Source: an uncultured Marivita sp.
GTDB lineage: Bacteria; Pseudomonadota; Alphaproteobacteria; Rhodobacterales; Rhodobacteraceae
Direction of reading: 5' to 3'
DNA length: 61,635 nucleotides
NCBI GenBank assembly: GCA_947503115.1
Contig: CANNCS010000007.1
Span: 1-61,635 of the forward strand
How positions within the stretch are numbered: position 1 is the first letter of the stretch; each line of letters starts with the position of its first letter. The translations under genes were made by a program, and so were the position numbers. The notes beneath the pieces are model-generated. The model saw only the letters and a program-made list of their open reading frames with translations. It did no database searches and had not been told where the DNA came from. Of this stretch, positions 22,658-28,913 are shown piece by piece.

Positions 22658-24877
22658 TTATCCTTCGATCTTGGTCAGATCGGCGACCTGCAAACAGGTA
22701 CTGCGAATGCTGCTCAGAAGGTTAAGTCGATTGCGCCGCAAAACGTCGTTGTCAGCATTGACCTGCACTGCTTCGAAGAAGGCATCGACCGGCCCCCGCA
22801 ACGCAGCCATTGCCGCCATTGCAGTACTGAAATCCTGCGCCTGCATCGCCGGGGTAATCTTGGCCTCGGCAGTGGCAAGCGCCTCGAACAGTGCGGTTTC
22901 GGTCGGGTCTTCGGCGAATTTCGCGTCACCACCGTACGAGTATTCCACACCGTCCTTTTCTTCGGCCTGCGTCAGGATGTTATTCGCCCGCTTGAAGCCC
23001 TGAACAAGGTTTTCGCCATCCTCGGTATCGAGCACCGCTTGCAACGCCTTGGCCCTATTGACCAGCAGCGCCAGATCATCGTTGCCGGGCATTCCAAGGC
23101 AAGCGTCGATCACGTCATGCCGCACGCCCTGATCGCGGAGATACACCTTGAGGCGGTCGTGGAAGAAAGAGAGGAGGTCGACGGATTTGTCGGGCACTTC
23201 CCCATTCATCGCATCCAGACCGTCGGTCGCGCCGTCACGCCGCGCTTTGAGCGTGCGATAGGCGGCGCTAAATACACCATGCTCCGCAATCTCGCGGATC
23301 AAGTCGTCGATATCTGTCTCGCTGACACCGTCGATCAGGTGGCCTTTGTGCCGGACAAGTTGCAGGTCGATAAACCGATCAAGCGGCATTTGCAGCCCGT
23401 TCTCCAACACCAACCGGATCACCCCAAGCGCTGCACGACGCAGCGCAAACGGGTCTTTCGATCCTGTGGGTTTCTCGTCAATCGCCCAAAACCCGGTCAG
23501 CGTGTCGATCTTGTCGGCCAGCGCGACAGCCACAGACACAGCAGCCGAGGGCACATCATCCGACGGGCCAAGCGGCGAATAATGCTCTTGGCAGGCCGCG
23601 CCGACTTCGGTCGGCAATCCTGCAGCGTCGCTATAGTAGCGGCCCATTAGCCCCTGAAGTTCAGGGAATTCATAAACCATTTCCGACGCCAAATCGGCCT
23701 TGGCCACGGTCGCGGCCTGTGCTGCCAGATCTGCATCTGCACCCACGACGGGCGCAAATTCACGCGCTAAGGCCGCAATGCGGTCAATGCGCGCCTTTTG
23801 TGATCCCAGCTTGTTGTGGAAGGTCACGTTGGTCAAACTGTTGGTCCAAGCGGTCAGGCCATCGGATTTGGCCACGCGCAAATCGTTTTCCCAAAAGAAC
23901 TTCGCATCCGACAGACGCGCCGATAGCACCTTCTGGTTGCCGGCAAGGATGGTCGCGCCATGATCGGCGGTTTCACGGTTTGCCACAGTGATGAACCGTT
24001 CGATCCGGCCCGTCTTGGGGTTTTTCACGGAAAAGAACTTTTGGTGCTCTTTCATAGAAGTTTGAAGCACCTCGGCTGGCAGACCAAGGAAATCCTCTCC
24101 GATCTCGCCCATCAAAACGACAGGCCATTCGACCAGCCCGGCCACCTCGGCCAGCAGCCCTTTGTCGTCGACCACCTCAAGCCCGCTTGCGAAGGCCTGA
24201 TTGGTCGCGTCCTGCCAGATTGCCTCGGCCCGCTCGGCGGCATCCAATACCACATGCGCGCGCTTCAGCTTGGCCTCATAGTCGTCGAACCCGGTCACAT
24301 CGAACGCACCCGGGGCCATGAAGCGGTGACCTTCGGTGGTGCGGCCCGACACGATGCCGTCCACATCTAGCGGCACAATTTCCGACCCATCCTCACGCGA
24401 CAGCAAGCAGACGATCCGGTGCAACGGACGTACCCAGCGCAGGCTGCCTGCGCCCCAGCGCATCGATTTCGGCCATGGGAAGTTGCGGATCGCATCCTCA
24501 AGAACCTCTGCTACGATCTCGGCAGCAGGAAGGCCCGGCTTTTCGATCACCGCGTAGAAGACGCGGCCTTTCTTTTCGTCCCGTTCGATCAGGTCGTCGC
24601 GTGTCAAACCCGCGCCGCGCAGAAACCCTTCGATGGCCTTGTCGGGCGCGTCAACGCGCGGTCCCTTGCGTTCTTCCTTGACGTCCGGCGACCGTTCGGT
24701 CAGCCCATCCACGCGCAGCGCCAGGCGGCGGGGCGTGGCAAAGGCCGCGGCACCGGCATAGGTCAGACCCGCCTCGACCAGACCATTGGTCACCCGTGTC
24801 TTGAGGTCGTCAGCGGCCTTGCCCTGCATCCGCGCCGGGATTTCCTCAGAAAAAAGCTCGATCAGAAGGTCTGGCAT
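22658..24877 (-). CDS. glyS: Glycyl-tRNA synthetase beta subunit
   Basis: The beta subunit binds tRNA-Gly in the alpha2-beta2 bacterial GlyRS. The 739-residue protein opens with the family start MPDLLIELFSEEIPARMQ and carries KEHQKFFSVK, the HD-like region and a C-terminal helical (DALR-type anticodon) part. An in-frame ATG at 24907 would add ten unconserved residues, so ATG 24877 is chosen; it shares one base with the TGA of the DUF6446 gene. The operon order is glyQ-FkbM-DUF6446-glyS, so the two synthetase subunits are separated by two unrelated genes. Confidence 0.97.
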   Translation of the reverse strand: MPDLLIELFSEEIPARMQGKAADDLKTRVTNGLVEAGLTYAGAAAFATPRRLALRVDGLTERSPDVKEERKGPRVDAPDKAIEGFLRGAGLTRDDLIERDEKKGRVFYAVIEKPGLPAAEIVAEVLEDAIRNFPWPKSMRWGAGSLRWVRPLHRIVCLLSREDGSEIVPLDVDGIVSGRTTEGHRFMAPGAFDVTGFDDYEAKLKRAHVVLDAAERAEAIWQDATNQAFASGLEVVDDKGLLAEVAGLVEWPVVLMGEIGEDFLGLPAEVLQTSMKEHQKFFSVKNPKTGRIERFITVANRETADHGATILAGNQKVLSARLSDAKFFWENDLRVAKSDGLTAWTNSLTNVTFHNKLGSQKARIDRIAALAREFAPVVGADADLAAQAATVAKADLASEMVYEFPELQGLMGRYYSDAAGLPTEVGAACQEHYSPLGPSDDVPSAAVSVAVALADKIDTLTGFWAIDEKPTGSKDPFALRRAALGVIRLVLENGLQMPLDRFIDLQLVRHKGHLIDGVSETDIDDLIREIAEHGVFSAAYRTLKARRDGATDGLDAMNGEVPDKSVDLLSFFHDRLKVYLRDQGVRHDVIDACLGMPGNDDLALLVNRAKALQAVLDTEDGENLVQGFKRANNILTQAEEKDGVEYSYGGDAKFAEDPTETALFEALATAEAKITPAMQAQDFSTAMAAMAALRGPVDAFFEAVQVNADNDVLRRNRLNLLSSIRSTCLQVADLTKIEG

Positions 24878-25404
24878 CAATTGCCTCCAGTTTCGCGTTC
24901 GGGGCAATCTTCGCCCAAGGGGCTGCCATCATAGGCCTTGTCCCCGCAATCGTTGATTTCGTGCCAAATATAACCGCGCCCGTCTTCGGCGATCGCGACC
25001 ACCCGGTCGATCCCGAATTCGAGGTTACGCTGGCTCGTGAACACCAGTGCGCGACCATTATCGATATCTTGGCCAATGGTATCGGCGTCGAAGCACTCGA
25101 ACCAGCTCGGCGCATTGCGCGGAGATGAACCAAGATACTGCTCATAGGTGGATGTCAGCGTCGACAGCGGCGTCTGTGTGGTGAAGCACGCTCTGAACCT
25201 AATGGGTGAGCTTTCGCTGTCAATCGCTTGAAAATCCTCATAAAGAATGGTTTCTCGCGTTCCGCTCAGCGTGGTCAGTTGTACATCATCCACACCATTT
25301 GGCGTGACGGTATCGTAGTAGGCATACACCTGCAGGTAATACATAGCCACACCCGCAATCAGCGCGCTGACGGCTATGACGATGGTAAGGATCTTGCCGG
25401 TCAT
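24877..25404 (-). CDS. DUF6446 family membrane-anchored protein
   Basis: A small protein (175 aa) with an N-terminal hydrophobic segment (residues 4-24, ILTIVIAVSALIAGVAMYYLQ) and a periplasmic domain of about 150 residues. I place it in DUF6446, a Rhodobacterales family of unknown function usually found between glyQ and glyS. Five cysteines lie in the soluble part (RACFTTQ, WFECFDAD, DCGDKAY, EDCPERE); if exported, some may form disulfides. The stop overlaps the glyS start by one base, and the FkbM stop is only 3 bases upstream, so it is in the middle of one operon. Confidence 0.8.
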   Translation of the reverse strand: MTGKILTIVIAVSALIAGVAMYYLQVYAYYDTVTPNGVDDVQLTTLSGTRETILYEDFQAIDSESSPIRFRACFTTQTPLSTLTSTYEQYLGSSPRNAPSWFECFDADTIGQDIDNGRALVFTSQRNLEFGIDRVVAIAEDGRGYIWHEINDCGDKAYDGSPLGEDCPERETGGN

Positions 25405-25407
25405 TGC

Positions 25408-26109
25408 CTATTTCCAATCCATGTTCACGCGCGGTTGCGTCATTGTTGCCGCACGCGCCCGCAACGCGTCAGTGCGCGCCAAGAGGTCGGGGATGCGGCT
25501 CTCGTGCGTTTCGACAAAAAGATGCCCGATCCGCTTTTTTACCGGATGGTCAAAAAGCGCTTCCAGAAGCGGAACCTCGGCCCCCTCGATATCCATTTTG
25601 ATCACCGCAATGTCACCATCCAGTGCGGCCAGAAAGGCGGGAAAGTCGATGACGTTCACGTCCACAGCGCTGGCCTTGTCGATATTGCGCTTCTGCGCCA
25701 TGAGCGACGACGATTGTGATTGTTCCACTGGGTCAGAGTCGAAAGACGACGTTCGATAGAGCGGAAATGTTCCGTCCTCGGTGCCTGCAGCGGCCTCGAT
25801 CACTTCGATATTCGAGACATCGGCCAAGCGTTTGCGCAATTCTGCGGCTGTCCAGGGGTCAGGCTCGAACGCATAAACTTTGGCGGCATGGGCCGCCATG
25901 GTGCGGGTGTGCTGACCTAGATTGGCGCCAAGGTCGACGCAAATCTTACCAGCCGCCTCGGTCAAAGCCTCGCGAAATTCCGCCTCTGCAGCGGGCGCAA
26001 AAAGCTTGCGTAACTTGCGGCGATATTTCAGCCCAAGCTCTCCCGGCAGGTGCTGCATCAGGCTGTATTTAGCCCGGCGCAGTGGCGTATTTCGGTTAGC
26101 CTGTGCCAT
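25408..26109 (-). CDS. FkbM family methyltransferase
   Basis: A SAM-dependent O-methyltransferase of the FkbM type (233 aa). SAM motif I is CVDLGANLGQHTRTMA (near residue 65), followed by YAFEPDPWTA (motif II region) and IKMDIEGAEVPLLEAL, the characteristic FkbM DIEGAE. Such enzymes methylate sugars, polyketides or glycans; the substrate here is unknown. ATG 26109 overlaps the glyQ stop, so it is coupled to glyQ. The N-terminal 50 residues are basic and could touch membrane or glycan. Nothing links it to tRNA synthesis except position. Confidence 0.88.
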   Translation of the reverse strand: MAQANRNTPLRRAKYSLMQHLPGELGLKYRRKLRKLFAPAAEAEFREALTEAAGKICVDLGANLGQHTRTMAAHAAKVYAFEPDPWTAAELRKRLADVSNIEVIEAAAGTEDGTFPLYRTSSFDSDPVEQSQSSSLMAQKRNIDKASAVDVNVIDFPAFLAALDGDIAVIKMDIEGAEVPLLEALFDHPVKKRIGHLFVETHESRIPDLLARTDALRARAATMTQPRVNMDWK

Positions 26110-27038: not shown

Positions 27039-27191
27039 GGCGTTGTCACCCCGGTTTGCACTGGCGCCTGATTAGGCGCATGGGGTCCGGGGGTCAATTG
27101 CGTGCGAGGTTCTAATTTTCGCGTTCCAGTAGCGGCGCAATCTTGTTAGAGCATGTGCCTGAAATAGGTTTTTCGGGCGGGTGACGAAATA

Positions 27192-28913
27192 ATGTTGCGC
27201 AATTTGTTATTTACGGTCTTGGCGACACTGATGTTTTGGGGCCAATCTGCATTGGCGCAGGACAGCGTTTATGTGCAAATCGAAGCACAGCCCAGTTTGT
27301 CCGTCGCCGAAGATCGTTTGCGCGACTATGCCTCCAATCTTCCCGATGTGAACGGGTTCGATTTGGGCCGGGGCTGGTATGGTATCGCTCTCGGGCCTTA
27401 TCCCCGCGACGAGGCTGGGCGCGTGTTGGGCAGCCTACGTGCACAGCGCTTGATCCCCAGCGACAGCTATCTTGAAGCGCCAGAACGCTATGGGCAGCGC
27501 ATTTGGCCGATCGGTGCAGGTCCGGCCGCTGTCCCACCAATCAGTGTGCCCGAGATCGTAACAGCACCTGAACCCGATCCACTAGACGCCGACGAAACCC
27601 CGCGCGAAGCCCGTGCGTCAGAGGGGCTGCTGACCCGCGAAGAACGCGAAGCACTGCAAATTGCTCTGCGTTGGTCAGGTTTTTACAATTCGAGCATTGA
27701 TGGCGCATTTGGCCGAGGCACCCGGTCCGCAATGGCCGCTTGGCAGCAATTCAACGGTTTCGAAGACACTGGTATTCTGACAACCGCGCAGCGGGCCGAG
27801 CTGTTTCGCCAGTACAACGCGGTGCTGGAAGGCATGGACATTCGATCTATCCGCGACGCAAGAGCAGGCATCGCCATTGATCTGCCGCTGGGCGCTGTGG
27901 CCTTCGATCGCTACGATAGCCCCTTTGCGCATTTCGAGCCGACAGGATCAGTCGAAGGTGCGCGCGTTTTGCTCATCAGTCAGCCCGGCGACCAAGACCG
28001 TCTGGCCGGGCTTTACGAGATCATGCAGACCCTCGATATCGTGCCGCTGGACGGCCCGCGCGACCGCAGCCGGGACAGTTTTACCCTCACCGGGCAGAAC
28101 AGCCGCATTGTGTCCCACACCGAAGCGCGACTTGATGGAGGCGCGATCAAGGGCTTCACATTGGTTTGGCCCGCAGCTGACGAAGAGCGCCGCACCCGAA
28201 TTCTGGCCGCCATGCAATCCAGCTTTGCACCGATCGACGGCGTTCTTGACCCGGCGGTGATCGCCGAGGATAGCCAAAGTGTTGATCTGGTTGCGGGCCT
28301 TGCGATCCGTAAACCCAAGCTTACTGCGTCGGGGTTCTTTGTCGACCCTCAGGGCAGGGTGGCTACCACCGATACGGCCGTTGCAAATTGCGGCCGCATC
28401 ACGCTCAACAACGACTACAGCGCCGAAGTGGTGACATCCGATCCGTCGCTTGGTGTTGCGGTCCTGCGAGCCACACAGCCCTTGGCGCCGAACGACATCG
28501 CCCAATTTCGCGATGGCGCGCCGCGCTTGCAGTCCGAAATCGCTGTAGCGGGTTTCTCGTTCGGAGGTGTTTTGCCGTCCGCAACAATGACTTTTGGTCG
28601 TTTGTCGGACCTCAGCGGCCTGAGTGGAGAAGACACGCTGACCCGTCTGGCCATAAGCACGCTTGATGGCGATGCGGGCGGTCCGGTGCTTGACGATGGT
28701 GGCGCGGTGATCGGCATGCTGGTGCCGCATGATGCCGGAGGCCGCCAGCTGCCTGATGATGTGAACTTTGCCACCAACAGCGCAGCGCTTCAGCAGGTGT
28801 TGTCCGGTGCGGGCGTGTCTCCGCAGGTCACACCCGGCCTTGCACGCCTCGATCCGGTAGACCTTACCGCCAAAGCCACGGCCATGACCGTGCTTGTCAG
28901 CTGCTGGGAGTGA
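27192..28913 (+). CDS. Peptidoglycan-binding protein with trypsin-like domain lacking the catalytic triad
   Basis: An exported 573-residue protein. Residues 1-22 are a signal peptide (ending QSALA-QD). Residues 25-105 look like a SPOR-type fold (VQIEAQPSLSVAEDRL, WYGIALGPYPRDEA). A PG_binding_1 domain lies at about 140-200 (ALRWSGFYNSSIDGAFGRGTRSA). From about 370 to 530 the sequence follows a chymotrypsin/DegP pattern, but the His position is T395 (VATTDTAVANC), the Asp position is G421 (DPSLGVAVL) and the Ser position is A495 (GDAGGPV). All three catalytic residues are replaced, so it is probably a pseudoprotease acting by binding. It runs alone toward the EamA gene, overlapping its 3' end by 17 bases. 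Confidence 0.82.
   Translation: MLRNLLFTVLATLMFWGQSALAQDSVYVQIEAQPSLSVAEDRLRDYASNLPDVNGFDLGRGWYGIALGPYPRDEAGRVLGSLRAQRLIPSDSYLEAPERYGQRIWPIGAGPAAVPPISVPEIVTAPEPDPLDADETPREARASEGLLTREEREALQIALRWSGFYNSSIDGAFGRGTRSAMAAWQQFNGFEDTGILTTAQRAELFRQYNAVLEGMDIRSIRDARAGIAIDLPLGAVAFDRYDSPFAHFEPTGSVEGARVLLISQPGDQDRLAGLYEIMQTLDIVPLDGPRDRSRDSFTLTGQNSRIVSHTEARLDGGAIKGFTLVWPAADEERRTRILAAMQSSFAPIDGVLDPAVIAEDSQSVDLVAGLAIRKPKLTASGFFVDPQGRVATTDTAVANCGRITLNNDYSAEVVTSDPSLGVAVLRATQPLAPNDIAQFRDGAPRLQSEIAVAGFSFGGVLPSATMTFGRLSDLSGLSGEDTLTRLAISTLDGDAGGPVLDDGGAVIGMLVPHDAGGRQLPDDVNFATNSAALQQVLSGAGVSPQVTPGLARLDPVDLTAKATAMTVLVSCWE

Follow-up and report, generated by a model that had tools for sequence, protein, structure and literature searches.

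The window, a stretch of 61,635 nucleotides from an uncultured Marivita sp. of the Rhodobacteraceae, carries at 27192–28913 a gene for a protein of 573 amino acids in which wall-binding domains precede a domain of the trypsin fold. The features of the gene are as follows.

27192–28913, + strand: whole gene, SPOR-like / PG_binding_1 / PsbP-like / pseudo-trypsin protein, 573 aa, ATG start
27192–27257, + strand: putative signal peptide, residues 1–22, ending in ALA (sequence inspection)
27261–27467, + strand: SPOR-like domain, residues ~24–92 (sub-threshold Pfam match, predicted fold order)
27636–27797, + strand: PG_binding_1 domain, residues 149–202 (Pfam PF01471)
27831–28241, + strand: PsbP-like domain, residues 214–350 (AlphaFold2 and Foldseek; no match in Pfam)
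27969–28049, + strand: highly conserved stretch of the PsbP-like domain, residues 260–286 (conservation)
28326–28718, + strand: Trypsin_2 domain, residues 379–509, triad lost (Pfam, PDB alignment, Foldseek)
28374–28376, + strand: T395, at the catalytic His position (alignment to Rv3671c/MarP)
28389–28391, + strand: C400, likely half of a disulfide (163/163 orthologues)
28452–28454, + strand: G421, at the catalytic Asp position (alignment to Rv3671c/MarP)
28644–28646, + strand: R485, newly conserved (orthologues versus active relatives)
28671–28673, + strand: D494, newly conserved (orthologues versus active relatives)
28674–28676, + strand: A495, at the catalytic Ser position (alignment to Rv3671c/MarP)
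28902–28904, + strand: C571, in a C-terminal SCW motif, probable partner of C400 (163/163 orthologues)

A putatively wall-linked trypsin-fold protein beside glyQ

Two of the domains are recognised by Pfam above threshold: Trypsin_2 (59.3 bits, E = 9.3e-16, cut-off 27.6) and PG_binding_1 (PF01471), which scores 53 bits against a cut-off of 23 in the query (E = 3.9e-14) and matches in 28/28 orthologues. With 12.9 bits, the SPOR model (PF05036) stays below its cut-off of 21 in the query, and 14 of 28 orthologues match it at E ≤ 0.1 (best 1.1e-5); the order β-α-β-β-α-β predicted for this region in the AlphaFold2 model fits a SPOR domain. The Pfam scan of the query protein found no PDZ domain, by which an HtrA/DegP protein would be assigned, and the degP model gave 14.4 bits against a cut-off of 416.2. 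In the AlphaFold2 model of 551 residues (mean pLDDT 81.5, pTM 0.48), the domains are well predicted and their relative arrangement is unsure; DegS (E = 3.5e-9) and Rv3671c are among the top Foldseek matches of its trypsin part. The nearest named relative, Marivita cryptomonadis, has a protein 92% identical.

The middle domain, which was absent from an earlier note made from the DNA sequence, has no Pfam family when residues 211–350 are searched alone (0 matches at E ≤ 10). Modelled alone with AlphaFold2, it reaches a mean pLDDT of 94.8, and Foldseek returned 15 PDB matches at E ≤ 0.001 (best 2.0e-5), mostly PsbP/CyanoP or photosystem chains. The PsbP matches have TM scores by query of 0.58–0.66, but r.m.s.d. 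values of 4.0–7.9 Å and 6–17% identity; we call the domain PsbP-like, after the PsbP/MOG1 superfamily.

A match to the protein at E ≤ 1e-25 was found in 338 of 394 genomes of the same family, a count of matches rather than verified orthologues, and some of the matching genomes are as small as 2.3–2.5 Mb. No match was found in the other 56 of the 394 genomes, of which 46 belong to the 347 good ones; should these genomes truly lack the gene, part of the family does without the protein. A family profile searched at 1e-20 against a class-wide sample matched 31 of 289 genomes; only 4 genomes, all of the same family, matched over the full length, and the other 27 of the 31 matched within profile positions 361–574, the trypsin part. 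Among plasmids in PLSDB there was one near-full match, in an unannotated record. Loci were read in 136 of the 338 matching genomes, namely high-scoring listed matches and a further 29 chosen by eye, most of which score low; the other 202 were left out. The orthologues L157, L160, L162 and L172 are split across two reading frames, reflecting assembly errors or real decay. Marivita lacus has a second copy (L042, 4001–6139) on a small contig, with no glyQ in view; it is 73% identical, carries two tandem SPOR-like domains and has no triad (T/G/A).

The gene glyQ adjoins in divergent orientation at 83 of 86 loci, some of them counted twice from two collections, and is in view at 23 of 30 loci of a second set. 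In Marivita the gene points away from glyQ, and the next gene, where seen, is convergent. In the interval between the two genes, 27039–27191, blocks that include ttttcgcgttcc and caatcttg are strongly conserved over 13 Marivita loci, and the interval is possibly a shared divergent promoter. On the far side of glyQ lie an FkbM-type methyltransferase gene at 25408–26106, − strand (PF05050, E = 1.3e-11), and, at 24877–25404, − strand, a gene for a DUF6446 protein (PF20044) with an N terminus that is hydrophobic by eye; in Marivita the methyltransferase gene stands between glyQ and the DUF6446 gene, and in many loci of other genera the DUF6446 gene adjoins glyQ directly. All 25 loci with a flank reaching glyS have the DUF6446 gene between glyQ and glyS. 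The literature searched yielded no paper naming DUF6446.

Loss of the catalytic triad, probably ancient

The earlier note had read the trypsin domain as one in which all three catalytic residues are replaced. Alignment to Rv3671c/MarP, with what we take to be its catalytic residues, bears this out with exact numbering: T395, G421 and A495 fall on His, Asp and Ser. Triad loss is a property of the orthologue family and not only of the query. Over all sources, the intact triad occurs in 0 of 163 distinct orthologous domains, compared with 53 of 57 other relatives, a contrast that goes beyond chance; two of its residues occur together in 0 of 163 and a single one in 11 of 163. Membership in the orthologue set was decided by a score above 35 bits with a profile of the PsbP-like domain, irrespective of triad state; identical copies were counted once, and only domains of 100 residues or more were included. 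The His position is occupied by E (75), D (29), A (22), Q (13), T (8), H (1) and others, the Asp position by G (147), D (2) and others, and the Ser position by A (112), V (23), S (8) and others. Four of the 57 relatives show no clean triad: L172 is an orthologue split between frames, L142 is interrupted by a stop, the second L151 copy reads HDT, and L152 has a split alignment, the other piece of which shows H and D.

Counted by genome, the triad is present in 1 of 134 readable trypsin domains from the 136 loci fetched, the remaining two loci having no domain of at least 100 residues (L162 is frame-split, and in L178 the domain is absent). The single case, L181 of genome G202, is a separate, triad-keeping homologue. 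This protein, listed also as L110, has a similar architecture: it matches the SPOR-like and PG-binding domains and, weakly, the PsbP-like domain (11 bits with filters off), a score that places it outside the set of 163.

A shifted or alternative triad, looked for in the orthologues, was not found: no histidine is at least 80% conserved anywhere in the trypsin domain of the orthologue alignment, and the serine and aspartate residues conserved at that level (S380, D417, D473, D494 and D501) all lie off the triad positions, ruling out such a rearrangement. Recent decay and sequencing error are likewise ruled out, because all 163 sequences share the loss and dN/dS is low. The earlier description of a pseudoprotease joined to wall-binding domains is well supported, and, judged from sequence, the protein is very probably non-proteolytic.

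When 87 trypsin domains were placed in a tree, 32 pseudo sequences formed one clade, with a branch support of 100/100 and with a stem whose length reaches 1.91 changes per column, a high value; the triad columns were kept in this tree, its root was drawn at the midpoint and its bootstrap is not fully settled. The neighbours of the clade are triad-keeping relatives from the same family. Since the triad-less sequences form one clade, inactivation in a common ancestor is the simplest reading. L177 and L180, which are divergent members encoded next to glyQ, have the Asp residue and have lost His and Ser; both fall among the loci L153–L242, which the tree leaves out. Because they keep Asp, the triad residues were not necessarily all lost at once, and inactivation was perhaps stepwise, with Asp lost last.

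The trypsin domain is akin to triad-keeping trypsins of Alphaproteobacteria that share its cysteine pair. Several of these, some with a PG-binding domain (L089, L107–L110 and L114), belong to the same subfamily and have C400 and the C-terminal cysteine but, unlike the pseudo-trypsin protein, an intact triad; L110/L181 may be a surviving relative of the active ancestor. Triad-keeping relatives with the cysteine pair occur in at least 18 of 198 genomes of the family (query L091, 1e-20, a search that missed L094 of genome G033), and searches of the Marivita sp. genome with P0001 and L091 matched none. In that genome six places score above the Trypsin_2 cut-off, including the pseudo-trypsin protein itself: two others are DegP-like proteins that retain H, D and S, and the remaining three are small trypsins with a His motif and either a Ser motif or a variant Ser motif. 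We found no link between these proteins and the pseudo-trypsin protein.

Constraint on the dead domain and a candidate docking core

The earlier note had also held that the framework around the missing triad is kept, which stands in part. GGP and glycine 493 are retained in 96–100% of orthologues, the oxyanion glycines and the cysteine pair stay, and C400 and C571 are each present in 163/163 orthologues (47/57 and 41/57 among the other relatives). By contrast, the query differs at six positions that are nearly fixed in 44 active Cys-pair relatives, N393, P456, Q485, Q491, N494 and N523. Compared with the same 44 sequences, and named by the active residue, N393, P456, Q491, N523 and N525 are released in the orthologues, with N525 kept by the query itself; these released positions would line the substrate cleft. 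Two positions have instead been fixed anew: 485 is R in 94% of the 163 orthologues and Q in 89% of the 44 active relatives, and 494 is D in 92% and N in 93%, respectively. In 151 of 163 orthologues R485 stands together with an acidic residue (D or E) at position 494; that R485 touches D494 is our guess.

The dead trypsin domain is under purifying selection. Across 13 Marivita sequences the median dN/dS is 0.071 for the trypsin domain, 0.069 for the SPOR-like, 0.096 for the PG-binding and 0.083 for the PsbP-like domain, rough ratios given dS near 1 and 58–76 of 78 pairs usable per domain. Together, the released positions, the newly fixed R485 and D494 and the low dN/dS suggest that a task other than cutting substrates keeps the trypsin domain under constraint.

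Two loci beside glyQ, each from one genome, encode variants that have lost domains. The protein of L178 ends after the PsbP-like domain, and a trypsin match sought in the other open reading frames above 90 aa at this locus was not found; one lineage thus lives without the pseudo-trypsin domain. The protein of L176 keeps the PsbP-like and trypsin parts, with no match to the SPOR-like and PG-binding domains. The PsbP-like domain is the part common to both, which is suggestive of a functional core, and for this reason we chose it as a candidate docking core. It also contains residues 271–285, which lie within a strand, helix and loop of the model and are better conserved than any other stretch of 15 residues in the protein. 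The assignment is weakened because mean conservation is led by the PG-binding domain (0.73, against 0.65 for the PsbP-like, 0.62 for the SPOR-like and 0.61 for the trypsin domain) and because the PsbP-like domain does not stand out by its dN/dS; a docking core there is a tentative proposal, somewhat short of an even chance. We did not adopt sequence homology between the PsbP-like domain and the middle parts of active relatives, for which a match to L110 (E = 5e-4) is weakly suggestive; hhalign gave E = 0.05 and a probability of 1% for group A and nothing significant for groups B and C.

Proposed role and comparison with known systems

Our main reading is that the gene encodes a secreted, peptidoglycan-tethered pseudoprotease that serves as a non-catalytic scaffold or adaptor on the wall, to which we give a probability of about 0.6. 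SPOR domains act at septal denuded glycan, and the SPOR-like and PG_binding_1 domains would hold the protein on the wall, perhaps at such sites. A partner would dock on the PsbP-like domain, in which a helix and a loop are conserved, and the trypsin fold, closed by a presumed C400–C571 disulfide, would provide a rigid second binding surface or a spacer, its old substrate cleft probably no longer taking substrates. By analogy with DipM, the likeliest partners would be wall hydrolases or other envelope proteins; that the protein is specifically a regulator of wall hydrolases is rather unlikely. A Rhodobacteraceae-specific envelope organiser, which arose by ancient inactivation of a wall-anchored trypsin and has a PsbP-like core, with the dead protease as a second binding domain marked by R485/D494, is possible, if less than probable.

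The retained glycine 493 and GGP might indicate that the protein is still a hydrolase, acting through other residues. This is highly improbable: the trypsin domain has neither a histidine at or above 80% conservation nor a serine or aspartate of that conservation at a triad position, the two invariant cysteines are common to active relatives, and more of the positions fixed in those relatives have changed. Some PsbP-like proteins bind metals or lipids, which favours a sensor whose ligand, a metal or small molecule, is taken up by the PsbP-like or the pseudo-trypsin domain. MamO, which binds metal by a di-His motif (PMC4794232), gives this proposal a precedent, but the trypsin domain has no conserved histidine; a MamO-like metal site is rejected on this ground, and a sensor is quite unlikely.

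A structural part of an envelope machine, comparable to PflC in the Campylobacter flagellar motor (PMC12222027), would also account for a dead protease. Against this quite improbable alternative stand the presence of the protein in most sampled family genomes, some of only 2.3–2.5 Mb, and identified neighbours that are neither flagellar nor pilus genes. An allosteric partner that activates or inhibits an active, DegP-like periplasmic protease could draw on the MamO–MamE precedent (PMC4794232) and on the two DegP-like proteins of the Marivita sp. genome. However, the pseudo-trypsin protein lacks a PDZ domain, and the gene faces away from glyQ with a convergent neighbour where seen. The earlier note had suggested a regulator or scaffold of wall enzymes or of an active protease; a regulator or scaffold role is plausible, and the version with an active protease is the weaker one, because no triad-keeping relative of the same clade was matched in the Marivita sp. 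genome and such relatives occur in at least 18 of 198 family genomes. As far as seen, general pairing with an active sister protease is rejected by the same numbers, and such a partnership is unlikely.

The usual domain models would probably name the protein a trypsin-like serine protease, yet the triad is present in 0 of 163 orthologous domains. It is an old pseudoprotease with triad-keeping relatives, domain-loss variants and a candidate docking surface, and because these exist, the function of a dead, wall-linked protease is testable in culturable bacteria that are not known to be pathogenic.

Among the literature matches listed, we recognised no published description of the pseudo-trypsin family. 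A Dinoroseobacter SPOR protein, Dshi_0924, conceivably a member of this family, is named in one paper (PMC7901474). The best PDB sequence match is MarP/Rv3671c (E = 8.8e-8), but the pseudo-trypsin protein lacks the triad and scores 32.8 bits with the MarP model NF033740, below the cut-off of 250. MarP is an active membrane serine protease. DipM carries LysM wall-binding domains. In DipM, a dead LytM domain docks on and stimulates autolysins (PMC10336132); like other degenerate LytM factors it is a dead hydrolase too, but of another domain family, and autolysin regulation is a property of DipM itself.

MamO resembles the pseudo-trypsin protein in being an alphaproteobacterial trypsin-fold protein whose triad is degenerate and whose role is non-catalytic; it works by activation and metal binding, together with MamE (PMC4794232). 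MamO has a residue other than glycine at position 193 and two metal-binding histidines, whereas the pseudo-trypsin family has Gly in 96% and no conserved histidine, and the SPOR-like, PG-binding and PsbP-like domains of the pseudo-trypsin protein set it further apart; the MamO model NF040961 gave 10.1 bits, below its cut-off of 800. PflC is a periplasmic HtrA relative without a triad and a scaffold in the medial disk of the Campylobacter motor, with a protease domain and two PDZ-like domains (PMC12222027), whereas the pseudo-trypsin protein has wall-binding domains and no PDZ match. MamO, PflC and DipM are precedents for dead-hydrolase scaffolds, with architectures unlike that of the pseudo-trypsin protein, which by the tests applied belongs to none of them but may in principle work as they do.
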